NCBI RefSeq assembly: GCF_037949795.1
Contig: NZ_CP149933.1
Location: 481,001-545,000 of the forward strand
Origin: Thioclava sp. GXIMD2076
GTDB taxonomy: Bacteria > Pseudomonadota > Alphaproteobacteria > Rhodobacterales > Rhodobacteraceae
DNA length: 64,000 nt
Direction: 5' to 3'
This document shows positions 50,939 to 60,449 of the stretch, piece after piece (positions within the stretch are counted from its first letter, which is position 1; the number at the start of each line of letters is the position of its first letter). The position numbers were made by a program, and so were the translations under genes. The notes beneath the pieces were generated by a model. The model saw only the letters and a list, made by a program, of their open reading frames with translations, did no database searches and had not been told where the DNA came from.

Positions 50939-51649
50939 ATGCATAACATTAAGATGACCCCCGCCTCCCTGGCTCGGGGCAAGCATAACCGCAATGGCCG
51001 CGACCATGCCTTCGAGACCATTGATCCTTCGCGCACGGCGCATATCATCGTCGATCTCCAGAACGGATTCATGGAAGAAGGCGCCGTCTCCGAGGTGCCT
51101 GTCGCGCGAGACATCGTCCCTAATGTCAATGACCTCTCGCGAGCGGTCCGCGCGGCGGGCGGCGTCAATATTTTCCTGCGCTATACCTATGATCCCGATG
51201 AGAAAAAGCAGTGGAATAGCTGGTATGGGTCGATGCTTGGCACGCCATTCTCCGAAGGTCTGAAAAAAGGCTTCACCGCGGGCGAACATGATCACGCTCT
51301 ATGGCCGGGTCTCGATGTCGCCGAGGGCGAGGCGATCCTCGACAAGACCCGCTTCAGCGGGTTCATCCAAGGCACCTGCGATCTGCAGAGGGTTCTGGAG
51401 GATCTCGATATAGACACGGTTCTGATTACCGGCACCGTCACCAATTGTTGTTCCGAGGCAACGGCCCGTGACGCCCATCAGCTGAGCTATAAGGTGATCT
51501 TCATCTCTGACGGTAATGCGGCGCTGAATGATGACGAGCATAACGGCAGCTTGGACAGTCTCTATCCGGTCTATGCCGATATCCGCAGCACGAAAGAGGT
51601 CGTGGGGCTTTTACAGGCGGGAGCGGAAAGCCGCGCGGCCGCTGAATGA
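50939..51649 (+). CDS. Isochorismatase-like cysteine hydrolase
   Basis: The 236-residue protein has the family triad: Asp39 (HIIVDLQNGF), Lys136 (DKTRFSGF) and Cys171 (GTVTNCCSEATARDA). The ITGTVTNCC segment has an extra cysteine (Cys170) before the catalytic position. Family members hydrolyse amides (nicotinamide, biuret, N-carbamoyl compounds, ureidoacrylate) or isochorismate. The longer N terminus (about 30 residues before the first strand) resembles N-carbamoylsarcosine/ureidoacrylate-type proteins. The start follows AAGAAAGGAAATC. It is transcribed after the GH3-importer operon and faces the arginase-family gene, so nitrogen release is a possible theme; this is a guess. Confidence 0.85.
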   Translation: MHNIKMTPASLARGKHNRNGRDHAFETIDPSRTAHIIVDLQNGFMEEGAVSEVPVARDIVPNVNDLSRAVRAAGGVNIFLRYTYDPDEKKQWNSWYGSMLGTPFSEGLKKGFTAGEHDHALWPGLDVAEGEAILDKTRFSGFIQGTCDLQRVLEDLDIDTVLITGTVTNCCSEATARDAHQLSYKVIFISDGNAALNDDEHNGSLDSLYPVYADIRSTKEVVGLLQAGAESRAAAE

Positions 51650-51706: not shown

Positions 51707-52609
51707 TTAGTCCGATAAAAGCGGCAGCTCTGCCAGCATGTCGCGCAGGTTCATCACGTCCCACGGCAGGTGCTCGGCAATACCCAGCCCCACAATCTCG
51801 ACCTCTCCCGCCACATCGCGCAGCAGCCGCACCACTTGCGCAAGGCTCATGCGGCCCTGCGGCGTGTCTGCCCATTCGGCATTGTCACTACCGGGTTTGT
51901 TAAACAGCAGCGAGCGGAACCCCTTCGGGTCGAGCACATCCAGATCCAGATGGATCGCAACATGTTTCTTCCCGCTCTGACGGAGCCAGTCCAATACAGG
52001 CGCGCTGGTTTCAGCCAGCTGATCCGGCCCGATAAACGGGATCCCCCAATCCGTCAGGCGCTCACGCTCGAGCGGGCTCATCTCGTCCATACCGGCATAA
52101 ACCACTTGTGCAGGCTCAACCTTGCGTGCCGCGATATCCGCCAGATCCTGATCGCCCTGCCCCATCAACGCACCGAGCACCATCGCATGGGCACGCTCGA
52201 ACTCGGCGGGCGTCATGATATCGGGATGGCTATCGACCCAGAGGATCGCCAGATCACCCTCGTATTTCTCGTTGAGATAGGCAAAGGGCGCCAGATCCAC
52301 GCCGCAATCCCCGCCGAATACAACCAGACGGTCGGGCGCATGGGCATCAATCAGCACGCGGGCGGATCTGGCCTGCGCGAGCACGCGGCTTTTGGCGAGA
52401 ATTCCATCCTCGAGCGGCAAAGGATCGGCGCTCGGCGGATCGACGGGCACTTCGACCATCGGTGTGTCGGAGGGTGGTGCCAGCCATGCCAGCAACTCGG
52501 CTCCGAAATGATAGGCAGGCAGATTGCCGCCCTGCCATTGCGCCATCTTCAGGCGTAACGTTTTGGGGGCGGGGGACGTTTGGGGCGCGGGTGTCGGGGA
52601 ATGCGGCAT
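51707..52609 (-). CDS. Arginase/agmatinase/formiminoglutamase-family protein
   Basis: The 300-residue protein has the ureohydrolase metal motifs LVVFGGDCGVDLAPF, ILWVDSHPDIMTP and AIHLDLDVLDPKGF. In arginases the first motif reads GGDHS, with His as a manganese ligand; here it is Cys, while Asp/His/Asp of the second and Asp/Asp of the third are present. It may therefore use a different metal or act on another guanidino or amidino substrate. The N-terminal 25 residues are proline-rich and poorly conserved, so the start could lie slightly downstream. It is alone on the minus strand in this island. Confidence 0.8.
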   Translation of the reverse strand: MPHSPTPAPQTSPAPKTLRLKMAQWQGGNLPAYHFGAELLAWLAPPSDTPMVEVPVDPPSADPLPLEDGILAKSRVLAQARSARVLIDAHAPDRLVVFGGDCGVDLAPFAYLNEKYEGDLAILWVDSHPDIMTPAEFERAHAMVLGALMGQGDQDLADIAARKVEPAQVVYAGMDEMSPLERERLTDWGIPFIGPDQLAETSAPVLDWLRQSGKKHVAIHLDLDVLDPKGFRSLLFNKPGSDNAEWADTPQGRMSLAQVVRLLRDVAGEVEIVGLGIAEHLPWDVMNLRDMLAELPLLSD

Positions 52610-52864: not shown

Positions 52865-53215
52865 ATGTATTCTGTCGCAATGATTTTCCGCCGCAAACCC
52901 GGCATGTCGCTGGAGGAATTTCAGGCGTATTACCGTGACCGTCATGGCCCGCTGATGCTGGAACATATCACCAATCGCGGCCTGATTTCTTACGAGCATT
53001 TCCCTGCCGCCAGTGCCAGCGCGGGTGCGCGCTATGTGACCGAGGGCGATCTCGAATATGACGCCATTTCGATCTACAGCTTCGAGACAGAGCAACAGGC
53101 CGAGGAATGCTGGGCTATCCCCGAGGTGATGGCAGACAGCGCGAAATTCATCGATTTCGAAACGATGATCTCTCTGCCGCTTTCGCGCCGCGCGGTTTTC
53201 CCCAAAGCCAACTGA
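52865..53215 (+). CDS. EthD-like small ferredoxin-fold protein
   Basis: This 116-residue protein has the EthD-domain pattern: a start of YSVAMIFRRKPGMSLEEFQAYYRDRHGPLM, where the PGMS-EEF and RDRHGP residues are characteristic, and a dimeric alpha/beta-barrel length. Family members assist ether or aromatic degradation, or isomerise or dehydrate small compounds; none can be chosen here. It precedes the sugar-binding protein by 50 bases and may share its operon. A CAACACCGAGGACAGCC sequence before the ATG contains the ribosome site GAGGA. Confidence 0.75.
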   Translation: MYSVAMIFRRKPGMSLEEFQAYYRDRHGPLMLEHITNRGLISYEHFPAASASAGARYVTEGDLEYDAISIYSFETEQQAEECWAIPEVMADSAKFIDFETMISLPLSRRAVFPKAN

Positions 53216-53265: not shown

Positions 53266-54375
53266 ATGAATTTCAAGACCCTGACACAGCGCGCGGGCGC
53301 GGTGGCCGCTGCCCTTCTTGTGGCCGGTGCGGCGCATGCCGCCAATCTCAACTCCGATAAGGTCGGCACCGAAGCCGATTTCGAGGATGTCACGAAATTC
53401 TGTGGCACCAAGCCCATCAAAGTGGCGCTCTCGGTCGGTTTCATGAATGCCAACCGGCAGATGAAATTCGAGGAACTCAAGGACGAGGCCGCGAAATGCC
53501 CCAACATCACCGAGGTCGGTCTGGCCGATGGTCAGGGCAACCCCGAAAAAGAACTGGCCAATATCCGCTCGCTCGCGGCGCAAGGCTTTGACATCATCCT
53601 GCTTGGCCCGCCGGATGCAGGCCCCGCCGCTATCCCCGCCATGCGCGATGCGATGCGCATGGGCTCTGTCGTGATCCCGATCGAGGTGGGCGTGAACTTC
53701 CCCGGCAAGATCGGCACCGATTACACCACCATCGTCACCCCAAATCAGGAACAGATGGCCAGCGTTTATGCGCAATTCCTCGTCGACCAGCTGCACGGCA
53801 AAGGGAATGTAATCGTCTGGGGTGGCTCGCCGGGGGCACCGCAAACCACCGCACAGGAACCGGGTTGGAAAAAGGTCTTTGCCGATAATCCGGGCATCAA
53901 TGTTCTGGAGGGTCCGGTTGTCTCGGGCTGGGATCCGGCACAATACCAGAAAGTGACCACCGCGCTTCTGGCCAAATATCCCGAGATTGATGGCATGTAT
54001 TCGGATTATGGCGTGGGCGTTCTGGGCTCGCTGCGGGCCTTCAAGGCCGCTGGTCGTCCGATGCCGCCCGTCACGGGGCTTGATGCCAACGGCGCGCAAT
54101 GCTTCTATACCGAGAACAAGCCCAATGAGCCGAAACTCGAAATGGGTCTGACCAGCTCCTGGACCTGGATCTTCCGCCTTGCCCTGCGTAAAGGTCTTGC
54201 GGCGGTGAATGATATCGACAGCGAAGAGCCCAGCATCGTCAATGTGGATCTTCTGGTCGATAGCACCTCCGACAATCCCGAAATCCACCCAGTCTGTGAC
54301 CCTGATCTTCCGGCAGATGTCTCGCTGCACTCCTCGCTTCTGTCGAAAGAGCAGCTGATCGCAATCTTCAAATAA
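53266..54375 (+). CDS. Sugar-type ABC transporter periplasmic binding protein, partner of the fused importer
   Basis: The 369-residue precursor has a signal peptide (MNFKTLTQRAGAVAAALLVAGAAHA). The ribose-binding-like fold has IKVALSVGFMNANRQMKFEELKDEA, NIRSLAAQGFDIILLGPPDAGPAAIPAM and YSDYGVGVLGSLRAFKAAGRPMPPVTGLDANG. The start is the ATG at 53266 after AACAGGAGA; a longer frame from 53107 overlaps the EthD-like gene. It lies 95 bases upstream of the fused permease-ATPase-permease gene and must be its binding protein. The ligand is not readable; sugar or sugar-alcohol is likely for the family. Confidence 0.88.
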   Translation: MNFKTLTQRAGAVAAALLVAGAAHAANLNSDKVGTEADFEDVTKFCGTKPIKVALSVGFMNANRQMKFEELKDEAAKCPNITEVGLADGQGNPEKELANIRSLAAQGFDIILLGPPDAGPAAIPAMRDAMRMGSVVIPIEVGVNFPGKIGTDYTTIVTPNQEQMASVYAQFLVDQLHGKGNVIVWGGSPGAPQTTAQEPGWKKVFADNPGINVLEGPVVSGWDPAQYQKVTTALLAKYPEIDGMYSDYGVGVLGSLRAFKAAGRPMPPVTGLDANGAQCFYTENKPNEPKLEMGLTSSWTWIFRLALRKGLAAVNDIDSEEPSIVNVDLLVDSTSDNPEIHPVCDPDLPADVSLHSSLLSKEQLIAIFK

Positions 54376-54383
54376 AACATAGC

Positions 54384-54407
54384 GCGGCGGGAGGAAACTT
54401 CCGCCGC
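54384..54407 (+). other. Intercistronic hairpin between binding protein and fused importer
   Basis: GCGGCGGGAG (54384-54393) pairs with CTTCCGCCGC (54398-54407), with one G-T pair, around a GAAA tetraloop. It lies 9 bases past the binding-protein stop and has no T run. As after 47822, it probably stabilises the binding-protein mRNA and dampens downstream expression. Confidence 0.6.
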
Positions 54408-54470
54408 CACGCCCGTCGGGCCTGCATACGGGCCCGCCTGTTTCTACCCATTTGCAAGACGAGACACCCG

Positions 54471-57400
54471 ATGCCCGCACCCGACCCCTATCATCAAGGG
54501 GCCTCCCTTCAGGCCGCCCCCGACCCCACGCCGCAAACCGGAGCCGCGCTGCGCCAGACTTTACGGGAAAGCACCGGAACGCTGGCTTTCCGTGCAGCCC
54601 TCGGTGTCGTGCTTCTCGTGGCACTGGCGCTTGTTCTGGCACCGCGGGCCGTGTCGGCGGGCTCCCTTTTCGCGATGGCGCCTTTTATCGGGGTGCTGGG
54701 TGTTGCCGCGATCGGCCAGTATCTGGTCATCCAGCAACGCGGCTTCGACCTCTCGGTGGCAGGCACCATTTCTGTCGCGGCCGTCATGATGACCGCCCTG
54801 CCCGCAAGCGATGCAGGGCTCGGGGCGACATTGGGCTATGTGGCGCTGACACTGATCTGCGGCGCGCTGATCGGGCTGGTCAATGGTGCGCTCGTCACCT
54901 TTGTGCGGGTGCCGCCGCTGATTGTCACCATCGGCACCAATTCCCTGCTGGTCGGTCTCGTCTATTGGATGACAGGCGGCTCGATCAGCTCGGCCCCCTC
55001 AGCGCTTGTGCAGATCGCCAGCGCACGGGTCGGTCTGGTCTCTGTGCTGTTTCTGGCGTTTCTGCTGCTCGGGGCCGCCCTCGCTTGGGGCATTTCGCGC
55101 ACCCGTCCAGGCCGCCAGTTCCTCATGTCTGCTGTTAGCGCCGATGCCGCGCGCGCCTTGGGCATTCCCGTAAGCCTGTGCACGCTGGGGGCCTATACTA
55201 CGGCAGGGCTTCTCTTCGCGCTGGCCGGTGTAATGCTGGCAGGGCTTGCTGTTACGCCCACGCTCCTGTCGGGTAATCCCTATATGCTCACCACGGTCGC
55301 CGCCGTTATTGTGGGCGGCAGCCCGCTCAACGGTGATCGCGGCAGCGTGCTGGCGACGATGATCGGGGCGGTATTCCTTGTCCTGCTGGACCAGATCGTC
55401 GTGTCGCTGGGTTTTGATTATGCCATCCAGTCCATCGTGCAGGCGGCCATCATTCTGGCAGGCGTGACCCTGCCGCAGCTGATCCGGCATATCCGGAACC
55501 GGCCGCAACCGCGCCCCAAAGATCCGGCCTCGCGACCGAAGGCGGCGGTGTCCAATAGACCCGCCGTGCTGGAGCTGCGCGACATCCATAAACATTTCGG
55601 CAAGACCATAGCCCTAGACGGCGTCGATCTTTCGGTGTCGCCGGGCGAGGTCCATGCCGTGATCGGTGAAAACGGCGCGGGCAAATCCACGCTGATCTCG
55701 GTGGCCTGCGGGGTTTTGCCGGTGACGCTGGGCGAGGTCGTCATCAATGGCCAACGCATGCAGGGCGCAGATCCCGACCGCTTCCGGGCTGCCGGGATTG
55801 CCGTGGCCTTCCAGCACCCGCCACTGCCGCCGCATCTGAGCGTGCTTGAATGTCTGTCACTGGCCGACCCCTCGCTCAAAGGGGCACAAGGAGCCGCCCG
55901 CGTGCGTGCGCTGATCGCACAGGTAACCACGGGCGCTCTGGCTGCGGACCCCCATGCGCGCATCTCGGACCTGACCATCGGCCAGCGCCATGTCGTCGAG
56001 ATCGCGCGGGCGCTGGCCTCCGATCCGCGCATCATCGTGCTGGACGAGCCGACCGAACCTTTCAAGGAAGAAGATGTCCGCCAGCTTTTTGCGCTGATCC
56101 GGCGTCTGCGGGAGCGTGGCGTGGCCATCGTCTATATCTCGCACCGTCTCGACGAGGTGGAAGAGATCGCCGACCGGATTTCCGTTCTGCGTGATGGCGC
56201 ACTGATCGCCACCCGCCCGCGTGACGCGTTCACCCGCGCCGATATCGTATCGATGATTGTGGGCCGCCCTGTGGGACAGGTCTATCCGCCGAAAGCGGGG
56301 GCGCAGGGAGAGGCACCTCTGCTCGAACTGCGTGACTTCTCGGGGCAAGGGTTCAATAATATCAACCTCACCCTGCGTCCGGGCGAAATTCTGGGCCTTG
56401 CGGGCGTCGAGGGTCAGGGCCAGCGCGATGTGATGCGTGCCTTGGCGGGACTTGCGCCCCATAGTGGAACCGTCACCCTGCACGGTGAAGCCCTCGAATG
56501 GCAAAGCCGCGCTGCCGCCCGCGAGGCAGGCGTGGCCTATGTGCCTGACGACCGCCACAAAGAGGGGCTCTTCATGTCGATGAGCATCGCCGAGAACCTT
56601 GGCGCGGGTGTCAACGGCGAAGGGCTGCGCATTGACCGGCTGTCAGAACGCAGCCAGATTGCCGAGCGCACGACAGATCTTCGGATCAAGGCGCCCTCTC
56701 ATGGCGTGACCATCAATGCCCTTTCGGGTGGCAACCAGCAAAAGGTGCTGATCGGGCGCGAGATCCTTGGCTCCCCGCGCATCTTCCTCGCGGACGAGCC
56801 CACAAAAGGCGTCGATATCGGCTCGAAAAGCGATATCTACCACAAGCTGCGGGCGCTTGCCGCGCAGGGTGTGGCCGTGATCGTGGCCTCGTCGGACGGG
56901 GTAGAGCTTGAGGGGCTGTGCGACCATGTGGCAATCATGGCGCGGGGCGAGGTTGCAGCCGAGCTTTCGGGCGATCACGTCAATGACGCCGAGATTACCG
57001 CAGCCAACCTGACCGCCGGTGGCCGCCGCGAAACCGAAAGCCCAGCCACAGGCGAGCGCAGCATGCTGCGTGGCCTTCTGGACAGCAAATGGTTTGCCAT
57101 CGGCATCCTGACGCTGGCCTGCGCGCTGATCGTGCAATCGGCGGTCTCGGTAAACAGCCGCTTCCTGTCGCCCTATAACCTCGACAATGTGCAGATCCAG
57201 ATGGCAACGCTGGCCTTGATCGCCTTTGGCCAGCTCTTCCTGATCCTGCAAGGCGAGATCGATTTTTCGGTCGGGCCAATGGCGGGGTTCGTCGTGGTGC
57301 TGTCGTCGTTCTGGATCCCGGACGGCATCTCGGGCACGCAGCTTGTGTTTACCGTCATTGGCATTCTGGCCATCACCACCGCAATGGGCTTTTTGCAAGG

Positions 57401-58013
57401 CTTGATCACATTGGTGCTGGGAATTCCCTCGATCATCGTCACATTGGCAGCCTTCTTCGCGTTGCAGGGGCTCTCGCTCTATCTGCGCCCGGTGCCGGGC
57501 GGGATCATCGATGCCAAGTTGATTGACGGTGCATTGATGCGTTTCGGTCCGGTCACACTGGCCGCCATTGTGGCCGTGATGCTGGCAGTCGGGCTGGAGC
57601 TGGTGCTCATGCGCACAGCCTTCGGCAAGAAGTTGCGGGCATTGGGTTCGGACGGATCATCGGCGGCCAAACTCGGCGCCAAACGCAAGGTTCTGCTACC
57701 GGCAGCCTTTGCCCTCAACGGGTTTCTGGTCGGGTTGGCGGGGCTTATTCTGGCCGCGACCGTGGGGGTAGGCTCGGGAACAACCGGCGCCAATTATTCT
57801 CTGATGGCCATTACCGCAGTGGTGCTGGGAGGGGCCGTGATCAGCGGTGGTATGGGATCTTTCATCGCCACGATCTTCGGCGCATTGCTGATCCAGCTGA
57901 CCTTCTCGGCCACGACTTTCATGCAGGTCGGCACCGAATGGCAATACTGGCTGGTCGGTCTGGTGACTCTCTTTGCGGCAAGCCTCTTCGCGCTCGGTCG
58001 CCGGACTGGCTAA
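54471..58013 (+). CDS. Fused ribose-type ABC importer: permease-ATPase-ATPase-permease in one chain
   Basis: This 1,180-residue protein carries four domains usually made as separate proteins. Permease 1 spans about residues 40-340 (GFDLSVAGTISVAAVMM at 91-107; VGGSPLNGDRGS at 281-292). ATPase 1 (365-600) has Walker A GENGAGKST at 399-407, a relaxed signature LTIGQRHVVEIARAL at 501-515, Walker B IIVLDEPT at 521-528 and SHRLDE at 557-562. ATPase 2 (615-850) has a degenerate Walker A (GVEGQGQRD at 645-653), LSGGNQQKV at 751-759 and Walker B IFLADEPTKGVD at 771-782, as in RbsA-type proteins. Permease 2 (865-1180) has EIDFSVGPMAGF at 929-940 and LGGAVISGGMGSF. The two permeases differ, so the chain encodes a heterodimeric pore. 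No internal stop or frameshift is seen. It follows the binding protein at 53266. Confidence 0.93.
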   Translation: MPAPDPYHQGASLQAAPDPTPQTGAALRQTLRESTGTLAFRAALGVVLLVALALVLAPRAVSAGSLFAMAPFIGVLGVAAIGQYLVIQQRGFDLSVAGTISVAAVMMTALPASDAGLGATLGYVALTLICGALIGLVNGALVTFVRVPPLIVTIGTNSLLVGLVYWMTGGSISSAPSALVQIASARVGLVSVLFLAFLLLGAALAWGISRTRPGRQFLMSAVSADAARALGIPVSLCTLGAYTTAGLLFALAGVMLAGLAVTPTLLSGNPYMLTTVAAVIVGGSPLNGDRGSVLATMIGAVFLVLLDQIVVSLGFDYAIQSIVQAAIILAGVTLPQLIRHIRNRPQPRPKDPASRPKAAVSNRPAVLELRDIHKHFGKTIALDGVDLSVSPGEVHAVIGENGAGKSTLISVACGVLPVTLGEVVINGQRMQGADPDRFRAAGIAVAFQHPPLPPHLSVLECLSLADPSLKGAQGAARVRALIAQVTTGALAADPHARISDLTIGQRHVVEIARALASDPRIIVLDEPTEPFKEEDVRQLFALIRRLRERGVAIVYISHRLDEVEEIADRISVLRDGALIATRPRDAFTRADIVSMIVGRPVGQVYPPKAGAQGEAPLLELRDFSGQGFNNINLTLRPGEILGLAGVEGQGQRDVMRALAGLAPHSGTVTLHGEALEWQSRAAAREAGVAYVPDDRHKEGLFMSMSIAENLGAGVNGEGLRIDRLSERSQIAERTTDLRIKAPSHGVTINALSGGNQQKVLIGREILGSPRIFLADEPTKGVDIGSKSDIYHKLRALAAQGVAVIVASSDGVELEGLCDHVAIMARGEVAAELSGDHVNDAEITAANLTAGGRRETESPATGERSMLRGLLDSKWFAIGILTLACALIVQSAVSVNSRFLSPYNLDNVQIQMATLALIAFGQLFLILQGEIDFSVGPMAGFVVVLSSFWIPDGISGTQLVFTVIGILAITTAMGFLQGLITLVLGIPSIIVTLAAFFALQGLSLYLRPVPGGIIDAKLIDGALMRFGPVTLAAIVAVMLAVGLELVLMRTAFGKKLRALGSDGSSAAKLGAKRKVLLPAAFALNGFLVGLAGLILAATVGVGSGTTGANYSLMAITAVVLGGAVISGGMGSFIATIFGALLIQLTFSATTFMQVGTEWQYWLVGLVTLFAASLFALGRRTG

Positions 58014-58018
58014 TTTAT

Positions 58019-58053
58019 GCCGGAAATTTACGCTTATAGCCTATATTTCCGGC
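58019..58053 (+). terminator. Hairpin after the fused importer gene
   Basis: GCCGGAAAT (58019-58027) pairs with ATTTCCGGC (58045-58053) around a 17-base loop, 5 bases past the importer stop. The T run after it is weak, so it is a probable terminator or 3' stabiliser before the AraC gene. Confidence 0.5.
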
Positions 58054-58174
58054 AGATTATGCTCGGCTTCTCGGGGGAGATAGGGTGCACGCCCCATCTT
58101 CCCCAAGATGACATTCACCTAACAGCTATTTGAAGAAATACTCGGTCCAAACCAAGTTGCTATCGCGAGGGTCA

Positions 58175-59113
58175 ATGAGCGCTCTTTTTGACACCAGCCA
58201 GATCGAGACACAGAACCGTTTCGCCTATTGGAACGATCTCGTCTTCAAGAATTATGCCCCGTGTATGGGGCGTGCACCCAAAGACGAGGAATTCAGCGCG
58301 ACTTTAGAAGCCCTACCTTTCGGGCAGATGATGATCTCACGCGTGGCGTCGAGCCCGATCACCTATGAGCGCCGCCTGAGCGATGTGCGCTATGATCCGC
58401 GCGATGATTTCTTTGCCGTGGCAATGCTGTCGGGGCGCACGATGCTGGTGCAAAACGGCCACGAGACATGGGCCCGACCGGGGGACATCTACCTCTACAG
58501 TTCCGCCCGCCCCTACCAGCACCATTCCGATGCCGATTACCGCTGCGTCTCGTTGCGCATTCCCCGCGCGCTGGCACAGGCACGCCTGACCCAGCTGGAC
58601 GACATCACGGGTCGCGTCCTCAAGGGCGACACGCCTTATGGGCGTATCCTGTCCTCGTTGATTGTCGAAGCCTCCGAGATCTCGGCGCAGGGTGACCGCG
58701 AGCAAGCCCTGCAAGGCTTCTCGACCTCGGTACTGGACATGATGACCGCAGCCATAGGTGCAAGCTTTGGCGCAGAAAGTTGCGGCTCTCGCAACCAGCG
58801 GCTTCTGAGCCGCATCCAGCATTACATGCGTGACAATCTCGCCGATAGCGGCTTGGGCCTCGCCGAAATCGCCACTGCCCAGAATGTCTCGATGCGCACC
58901 TTGGCGCGGCTGTTCACCGAAGCGGGCACAACGCCTATGGCATGGCTGCAGAGCCAGCGTCTGGCCTGTGCCTATGCCGCACTCAATGAACGCCGCGTCG
59001 AAAACGTCTCCGAGGCCGCCTTTGCCTATGGTTTCAATGACAGCTCCTATTTCGGCAAGGCGTTCAAGAAGACCTACGGGATCACGCCCAAGACGCTTCT
59101 CGAGCGGAACTGA
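58175..59113 (+). CDS. AraC-family regulator, paralogue of the one at 43767
   Basis: The 312-residue regulator starts at the ATG at 58175; a TTG at 58130 in frame would add 15 residues. The sensor domain has YAPCMGRAP, SSPITYERR, DDFFAVAMLSGRTMLVQNGHE and GDIYLYSSARPYQHH. The DNA-binding part has LGLAEIATAQNVSMRTLARLFTEAGTTPMAWLQSQRL and VENVSEAAFAYGFNDSSYFGKAFKKTYGITPKTLL. Most of these blocks match the gene at 43767, so the two arose by duplication. It lies between the fused importer and the aldo/keto reductase and could activate either. Confidence 0.88.
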   Translation: MSALFDTSQIETQNRFAYWNDLVFKNYAPCMGRAPKDEEFSATLEALPFGQMMISRVASSPITYERRLSDVRYDPRDDFFAVAMLSGRTMLVQNGHETWARPGDIYLYSSARPYQHHSDADYRCVSLRIPRALAQARLTQLDDITGRVLKGDTPYGRILSSLIVEASEISAQGDREQALQGFSTSVLDMMTAAIGASFGAESCGSRNQRLLSRIQHYMRDNLADSGLGLAEIATAQNVSMRTLARLFTEAGTTPMAWLQSQRLACAYAALNERRVENVSEAAFAYGFNDSSYFGKAFKKTYGITPKTLLERN

Positions 59114-59234: not shown

Positions 59235-60449
59235 TTGGCGCTCAAAGATCTCCTGACCAGCAAACTCGGCTTTGGGGCCGCGCCCTTGGGCAATATGTTC
59301 CGCGCAATCCCCGAAGACGAAGCCATGGAGACCGTCGAAGCCGCATGGGCCGACGGGATCCGCTATTTCGACAATGCGCCCATGTATGGCGCGGGGCTGG
59401 CGGAGATCCGTATGGGGCAGGCCCTCAAGGACAAGCCGCGCGATGACTATGTTCTGAGCACCAAGGTCGGGCGGGTCGTGCTCGACGAGATGGCCGAGCC
59501 GAACGATAATCCGGTCTTCGCGCATGGGCGCAAAAACAGGGTCATCAGCGATTACAGCCATGATGCCACGATGCGCTCGATCGAAGACAGCCTCGCACGA
59601 CTGCAGACCGACCGGCTCGACATCGTCTGGGTGCATGATGTGGCGCAAGATTTCTGGGGCGACGACTGGATCAGCGTGTTCGATCAGGCCCGCAAAGGCG
59701 CCTTCGTGACGCTGGATCGATTGCGAGATGAAGGGGTGATCAAGGCTTGGGGTCTTGGCGTGAACCGCGTCGAAGCGGTGGAGTTGCTGCTCTCGCTCGA
59801 CGGACCGCGCCCCGACGGCTCGCTCTTGGCGGGACGCTATACCCTACTGGACCATAGTCGCGCGCTTGAACGGCTGATGCCGGAAGTGAGTGCTCAGGGG
59901 TTGGGGATCGTGGTTGGCGGGCCTTACAGTTCGGGCGCGCTGGTTGGCGGACCCAATTTCGAATATGCCCCCATCACGCCCCCGATGCAGGCGCGGATTG
60001 ATGCGATACGGGCCATTGCCGAGGCACATGGCGTGTCGATGAAGGCGGCAGGCTTACAATTCTCGCTGGCCAATCCGGCGGTCAGCGCCGTCATTCCCGG
60101 CGCAAGCCGCCCCTCGCGGATTGCCGAAGATACAGCCGCCCTGCGCGAGACCATCCCCGCAGCCTTCTGGGCCGATCTGCGTGCGGCAGAGCTGGTCCAC
60201 ACCAAAGCCCCCTTCCCGCCTGACACGGAAAGCCCCGTCCGGACAGCGTCGTCCGGACGGGAGGCCGGGGAGAGTGATTTTCAGAACGCCGCGCGTAACG
60301 CGCGAAGCCCCTGCGAGAGCACGCCAACATCCGAACCCACCTCTTCAGCGGAGCAAGGCCAATTATGGCCTACCTCTCCCAACGTGCCCTCGAAGCCTTC
60401 CAAATTGTCCTCGAATGCGGCTCCGTCTCGGGAGCGGCCGAAATCATGA
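59235..60449 (+). CDS. Aldo/keto reductase-type aldose 1-dehydrogenase with an abnormal C-terminal extension
   Basis: The 404-residue frame starts at the TTG at 59235 after AAAGGA; an ATG at 59199 is possible but has no ribosome site. Family features are GFGAAPLGNMFRAIPEDEAMETVEAAWADGIRYFDNAPMYG (catalytic Asp and Tyr), LSTKVGRV (Lys) and IVWVHDV (His). These resemble D-threo-aldose/L-fucose 1-dehydrogenases and pyridoxal 4-dehydrogenase. The normal C terminus (LVHTKAPFPP) ends near residue 329. The frame then runs 75 more low-complexity residues into the LysR gene, overlapping it by 85 bases. A TGA at 60221 is one base out of frame at the expected end, so the natural stop seems lost by an indel. 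It would oxidise an aldose to its lactone. Confidence 0.8.
   Translation: MALKDLLTSKLGFGAAPLGNMFRAIPEDEAMETVEAAWADGIRYFDNAPMYGAGLAEIRMGQALKDKPRDDYVLSTKVGRVVLDEMAEPNDNPVFAHGRKNRVISDYSHDATMRSIEDSLARLQTDRLDIVWVHDVAQDFWGDDWISVFDQARKGAFVTLDRLRDEGVIKAWGLGVNRVEAVELLLSLDGPRPDGSLLAGRYTLLDHSRALERLMPEVSAQGLGIVVGGPYSSGALVGGPNFEYAPITPPMQARIDAIRAIAEAHGVSMKAAGLQFSLANPAVSAVIPGASRPSRIAEDTAALRETIPAAFWADLRAAELVHTKAPFPPDTESPVRTASSGREAGESDFQNAARNARSPCESTPTSEPTSSAEQGQLWPTSPNVPSKPSKLSSNAAPSRERPKS
60234..60261 (+). terminator. Perfect 11-bp hairpin just past the expected reductase end
   Basis: CCCGTCCGGAC (60234-60244) pairs exactly with GTCCGGACGGG (60251-60261) around AGCGTC. It lies inside the extended reductase frame but directly after the out-of-frame TGA at 60221, so it looks like the original terminator hairpin. 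No T run follows. Confidence 0.55.

Follow-up and report, generated by a model that had tools for sequence, protein, structure and literature searches.

The gene at 54471..58013 on the forward strand of a 64,000-nucleotide stretch of Thioclava sp. GXIMD2076 (contig NZ_CP149933.1, positions 481,001 to 545,000; hereafter the window) encodes the four core domains of an ATP-binding cassette (ABC) importer in a single polypeptide. The order permease1-ATPase1-ATPase2-permease2 in one chain, with the gene for a ribose-type binding protein upstream, is confirmed. The product is best explained as a single-chain importer of the CUT2 (ribose-type) class for which a small compound linked to nitrile, amide or ring catabolism is a more likely substrate than ribose, a reading to which we assign a probability of about 0.75. 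The architecture appears undescribed in the literature searched, though sequences that have it are already in the databases. The first-pass annotation was aware of no described class with such a chain, and no description of a permease-ATPase-ATPase-permease importer was found in the open-access literature, on the basis of titles, opening lines of abstracts and counts of terms, with subscription papers mostly outside the search.

The open reading frame begins with ATG, contains zero internal stop codons and specifies 1,180 residues (122.6 kDa). Two BPD_transp_2 and two ABC_tran domains were identified with Pfam, in agreement with the claim of the first-pass annotation that a complete importer core is present in one chain. 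Permease 1 spans approximately residues 31-340 (54561..55490), the double ATPase residues 361-850 (55551..57020) and permease 2 residues 866-1178 (57066..58004), all on the forward strand; linker 1, at approximately residues 341-364 (55491..55562, forward strand), differs in length among family members. The permeases separately exceed the Pfam cut-off of 26.8 bits, with scores of 77.2 and 86.7, and share 28% identity over 275 aligned columns, a result establishing that two different permeases flank the double ATPase as had been proposed. The xylose-type model NF010069 (positions 4-504 of 513) aligns to residues 365-849, as expected of a tandem double ATPase of the RbsA/XylG type. The binding protein noted upstream is encoded at 53266..54375 (forward strand), matches Peripla_BP_4 with 119.5 bits and has 369 residues with a signal-peptide-like N terminus. 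Thus, the tandem double ATPase, the BPD_transp_2 permeases and the adjacent Peripla_BP_4 protein characteristic of CUT2 are all present, while the separate ATPase and permease polypeptides usual for that class, though not strictly defining, are replaced by one uninterrupted frame. The importer permease family and the order of transmembrane (TMD) and nucleotide-binding (NBD) domains, TMD-NBD-NBD-TMD, distinguish the chain from single-chain exporters of the ABCB type.

The topology of the permeases was predicted from family-averaged hydropathy and counts of lysine and arginine (K/R). Ten membrane segments are predicted for permease 2, whose two ends fall on the side rich in K/R and hence cytoplasmic. 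Eleven segments were called in permease 1, the weakest of which (residues 218-234) lies beside a K/R-rich loop and is read as a cytoplasmic coupling helix, leaving ten. With that segment so counted, the prediction places both ends of both permeases in the cytoplasm, and the topology asserted for the chain is plausible. A comparison with solved structures returned one match at chance level for permease 1 (E 0.072) and none for permease 2.

The database search for the same four-domain order that had been suggested as a check was made with a large protein collection, in which 8,000 candidates were scored, 1,100 proteins matched and 120 clusters were listed; all cluster counts refer to these 120. 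The four-domain order was found in 37, the window's own included, among them clusters named for Rhizobium sp. Root1204, Variovorax sp. J31P207 and Labrys wisconsinensis. An ATPase-ATPase-permease protein encoded by one gene was scored in 81 clusters, 60 with permease2 and 21 with a permease nearer to permease1, and the remaining two are one permease-ATPase-ATPase protein and P0043 (668 residues), a permease1-ATPase piece. P0014 (939 residues), scored among the 60, starts inside permease1 and is an incomplete four-domain chain. In the databases, the matched proteins already carry labels such as 'ribose transport system ATP-binding protein'. In overlapping samples of 101, 385, 398 and 120 genomes (thresholds 1e-150, 1e-180, 1e-180 and 1e-140, respectively), each containing the genome of the window, the four-domain chain was not found beyond that genome, nor was anything found at two further sampling centres of 1 and 17 genomes. 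ATPase-ATPase-permease relatives occur in six other genomes of the 101-genome sample and in one more of the 120-genome sample. The matches listed from a scan of genome contigs with ubiquitous ATPase motifs are distant relatives. At least 5,000 PLSDB records matched, with a full-length match in one piece in 1 of the 40 listed; the loci read comprise ten of the fused type (H1-H4, H8, H10, H12, H15, H16 and H20) and two ordinary ones (H18 and H23), leaving 28 of those listed aside.

The asymmetry of the two ATPases is conserved throughout the four-domain members. ATPase1 retains the Walker A Lys and Ser, the Walker B Glu and the H-loop His in 37 of 37, and its signature is altered, the first Gly being replaced by Leu or Ile. 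In ATPase2 the P-loop is degenerate, Gln-Arg standing in place of the Walker A Lys-Ser in all 37; the LSGGN signature (GG) is intact and the Walker B Glu is present, again in 37 of 37, and the H-loop position is Ser (32) or Ala (5). The same asymmetry is found in 86 stand-alone double ATPases, with the ATPase1 Lys in 84 (two are gapped) and Arg or Gln at the ATPase2 position in 78. The motifs suggest that the Walker A of ATPase1 and the signature of ATPase2 form one hydrolytic ATP site and that the second site is degenerate, a pattern shared with the wider family. The binding protein would hand its substrate to a pore built from both unlike permeases of one chain, and the central ATPases would power transport, with the Walker A of ATPase1 facing the LSGGN of ATPase2 as the canonical site and the other site degenerate. 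Assembly as a 1:1 heterodimeric transporter and the pairing of each ATPase with a permease are inferred, and the presence of a binding protein argues for import as the direction of transport.

Two alternative explanations concern the chain itself. An assembly or base error joining separate genes, named in the first-pass annotation as the result that would undo the observation, could draw on a paralogue in the same genome that has a stop codon at the very same junction. However, the independent plasmid p2 record of Thioclava sp. 'Guangxiensis' (CP155823.1), which is 99.1% identical over the first 43.7 kb of the window and 99.2% identical to the stretch holding the importer gene, has the same frame at equal length. 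The two copies of the gene differ at 26 bases, 23 of them synonymous, and at three residues, two of which are adjacent in linker 1. With the four-domain order in 36 further clusters, such an error is ruled out for practical purposes and retains a negligible probability. The other alternative accepts the single frame and supposes that the chain is cleaved, or also started internally, so that the working transporter is still composed of several subunits. Linker 1 varies from 32 to 48 residues among the four-domain members (standard deviation 4.9) and would tolerate cleavage, and close relatives have separate permease1 genes; linker 2, at 28-34 residues over the measured stretch (standard deviation 1.0), is near constant in length, which speaks against it. 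A conserved internal ATG start in linker 1 is unsupported, as Met is present in 9 of the 37 members and absent from 28, a count that covers ATG starts. We regard a cleaved or internally started chain as quite improbable. Since linker 2 is near constant and linker 1 variable, the spread in length fits an older, tight joint between ATPase2 and permease2 and a younger, looser tether to permease1.

The paralogue (G000:C2:447527-450931, locus L092) bears on the origin of the fusion. Its permease1 and ATPase-ATPase-permease2 lie in one frame separated by a single TGA, with an ATG nine bases past it, and in Shinella sp. PSBB067 (L096) the two corresponding genes overlap as ATGA. Outside the four-domain group, permease1 is encoded downstream in R. 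ruber and Rhizobium AB2/73 and upstream in other loci, with the binding-protein gene in between; the short sequences taken for L086-L088, L090, L091 and L093 stand outside this comparison. The chain may have been closed by loss of the stop between an upstream permease1 gene and an ATPase-ATPase-permease2 gene. A joining of three ordinary genes at once is contradicted by the 81 of 120 clusters in which ATPase-ATPase-permease was scored as one gene. We infer that the four-domain chain is one step past the commoner ATPase-ATPase-permease2 form with a separate permease1 gene, the direction of that step included.

In a FastTree phylogeny of 229 double ATPases, all 37 four-domain rows fall in one group with local support of 100. 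The group holds seven more rows, namely the paralogue twice (L092 and its copy in the CP155823.1 locus, L121, both kept in this tree), Shinella L096, P0014 and P0039-P0041; the duplicate or short loci L085-L091, L093, L095, L099 and L100 were left out before tree building. Four changes between the fused and split states are required on a better-modelled tree of 71 rows, from which P0043 and P0063-P0120 were left out, and three on a 49-row tree in which P0014 is treated as fused. A single clade of all fused forms was rejected by the approximately unbiased test (p-AU 0.00082; 38 fused rows including P0014 against 11 split), a value that is indicative only, as the tree came from a short search and the group was named after the trees had been seen. 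Split forms fall among fused ones and, since that clade is rejected, the junction was probably closed or reopened more than once, either by several fusions or by fusion followed by fission. In the permease tree, from which 141 of 302 permeases were left out, L108 among them, the permease1 domains of the fused chains form one group with the stand-alone permease1 genes of L092 and L096 (support 99), joined next by the separate permease1 genes of L094, L097, L098 and L118 (support 82) and then by more at weaker support (68). Because permease1 from fused chains clusters with permease1 encoded on its own, the unlike pair, and with it the two-permease pore, looks older than the fusion. The suggestion that the covalent link is the source of the heterodimeric pore does not hold, as relatives with a separate permease1 already have two unlike permeases.

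The designation 'sugar' in the first-pass annotation rests on family resemblance and is not supported. Among the listed models, which are 25 of 195 families for the importer and 5 of 5 for the binding protein, none attains its NCBIfam cut-off. The best importer ATPase model, of the XylG type, scored 391.9 bits against a cut-off of 699, LsrA 361 of 586, LsrC 171 of 388 and YtfR 323 of 850, and the RbsB model scored 43.9 bits for the binding protein against a cut-off of 337. Nearby and paralogous clusters hold genes of the amide/nitrile type, and the neighbours do not point clearly to sugar catabolism. In CP155823.1, two related importer systems adjoin nitrile hydratase and amidase genes; these clusters (L121:12666-20259 and L121:29847-40700) each lie next to an ATPase-ATPase-permease importer and to regulators of the AraC or helix-turn-helix type. 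In the genome of the window, the search found two nitrile hydratase alpha genes, both less than 4 kb from a fused-type importer, and in the other six genomes searched there is one such gene (G020), not near a fused-type importer. EthD has three matches in the genome of the window, one 1.3 kb from the importer, one 6.4 kb from the paralogue and the third elsewhere. All three EthD matches (two genes) in G057 lie less than 3 kb from its two systems, the single matches in G014 and G020 are not near an importer, and none was found in G006, G012 or G013.

Of the 19 loci examined in the wider fused group, 16 carry marker genes: EthD in 6, intradiol dioxygenase with maleylacetate reductase in 9, and nitrile hydratase in 2 (one also with EthD). 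The 19 loci are not independent: the genome of the window and its near twin account for three and G057 for two, and among the nine loci with ring-cleavage genes, L114, L115, L116 and L119 are orthologues within a single genus. Pfam was applied to 9 of 13 called genes in L096, 10 of 15 in L117 and 10 of 17 in both L118 and L114; for L115, L116, L119 and L120 the check consisted of tblastn with selected queries, and L027 (diverged, tblastn probe only) and L123 (short flanks) stand outside the count. A gene of the sugar-kinase type was found in 1 of 15 annotated or Pfam-scanned loci (L108, at the edge) versus 2 of 2 CUT2 loci of the ordinary kind. In L106, L109, L110, L111, L114-L116, L119 and L120, genes for intradiol dioxygenase and maleylacetate reductase adjoin ATPase-ATPase-permease importers, with Dabb/YciI also in L106, L109, L110, L111 and L114; importers of these loci perhaps take up a cyclic polyol or a phenolic degraded via hydroxyquinol. 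Genes for flavin adenine dinucleotide (FAD)-dependent oxidoreductases and dehydrogenases of the short-chain dehydrogenase/reductase (SDR) type recurrently adjoin the importers of L096, L098 and L118.

The chain could be an ordinary sugar importer, merely fused, with incidental neighbours. Among known families it is most similar to sugar ATPases and binding proteins of CUT2, and a GH3 glycosidase and another sugar-type importer are encoded just upstream in the window, with an aldo/keto reductase gene downstream of the importer gene. The sugar-specific cut-offs left unreached, the markers in 16 of 19 loci (EthD, ring-cleavage or nitrile hydratase genes) and the rarity of sugar-kinase-type genes argue against this explanation, which we consider rather unlikely. 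Several observations weigh in turn against the nitrile, amide or ring-catabolism assignment. Sugar ATPases of the XylG type still give the highest scores among the family models, albeit below cut-off; the solved binding proteins matched are mostly named sugar binders; three of the 19 loci (L096, L107 and L108) carry no marker gene; and the sole four-domain neighbourhood read, that of the window, has no nitrile hydratase. With ring-cleavage genes in some loci and no markers in those three, no single substrate fits all. The gene neighbourhoods thus provide a lead to a substrate from nitrile, amide or ring catabolism. An amide- or nitrile-related compound is a serious candidate at somewhat less than even odds, a classical monosaccharide is doubtful, and the remaining probability falls to other compounds.

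Further features of the locus include two GC-rich hairpins between the binding-protein and importer genes (54384..54436, forward strand; z = -3.24 for the whole 95-base gap), for which a role in controlling the ratio of binding protein to importer, perhaps with binding protein in excess, is possible. Another hairpin lies directly 3' of the importer gene (58018..58054, forward strand; z = -4.52). It is followed by the gene for an AraC-type protein with AraC_binding_2 and HTH_18 domains (58175..59113, forward strand), which likely regulates the cluster. Upstream are genes for an EthD-domain protein of 116 residues (52865..53215, forward strand), an arginase-family protein (51707..52609, reverse strand) and an amidohydrolase-like protein of the isochorismatase/cysteine-hydrolase family (50939..51649, forward strand). 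Identities between the loci of the window and the paralogue are 64% for EthD, 46% for the arginase-family proteins, 45% for the binding proteins and approximately 31% for the AraC-type regulators. Because these components are shared, the two loci appear to be diverged versions of a single module. The aldo/keto reductase frame downstream (59235-60446) overruns its expected end and overlaps the next gene, of the LysR type. The protein in CP155823.1 stops at 329 residues; a single C within a run of C distinguishes the two sequences, and the window has approximately 68 extra bases near 60236-60305.

It is conceivable, though less likely than not, that the importer belongs to a distinct ribose-type branch that moved from sugars to nitriles, amides and cyclic catabolites, and that the transporter became one obligate heterodimeric chain in some members, its last junction opened or closed repeatedly. 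If so, the matched fused and split forms would serve as natural experiments. A single-chain importer of fixed order would allow each permease, ATPase and coupling contact to be mutated singly, which homodimeric importers do not permit, and the paralogue, split in frame and present in the same genome, offers an existing control for the effect of the covalent link. Should the substrate prove to be a nitrile or amide, the annotation 'ribose-type' would mislead for the whole branch.

In the CUT2 systems RbsABC and XylFGH, the ATPase and permease are normally encoded by separate genes. The importer of the window resembles them in the motif asymmetry of its double ATPase, in its BPD_transp_2 permeases and in its Peripla_BP_4 binding protein, and differs in having four domains in one chain and dissimilar permeases. 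Two different permeases with one double ATPase are also found, as three genes, in the autoinducer-2 (AI-2) system LsrACD and the galactofuranose system YtfR-YtfT-YjfF; the likeness extends to the LsrA, LsrC and YtfR models, which match below their cut-offs, whereas the single chain and the scores short of those cut-offs set the window's importer apart. Single-chain ABC exporters of the P-glycoprotein type likewise carry all four core domains in one chain, but in the order membrane-ATPase-membrane-ATPase and with an exporter fold, unlike the membrane-ATPase-ATPase-membrane order, importer permease family and binding protein found here. Permease and ATPase also share one chain in iron/siderophore importers with 'fused permease and ATPase components', which PMC2991359 places in a different subfamily (DPL/SID) where two genes of this kind are neighbours; the fused permease/ATPase matches in PMC2847192 and PMC2991359 concern other clusters of orthologous groups (COGs). 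The ATPase-ATPase-permease relatives (815-876 residues in the listed clusters; for example, Thioclava XBA79562.1 and Rhizobium WP_209160269.1) have the same ATPases fused to a permease, the ATPase block of the listed three-domain clusters (P0014 excepted) being 34-57% identical, whereas, where the neighbourhood was read, their permease1 is encoded by a separate gene upstream or downstream.

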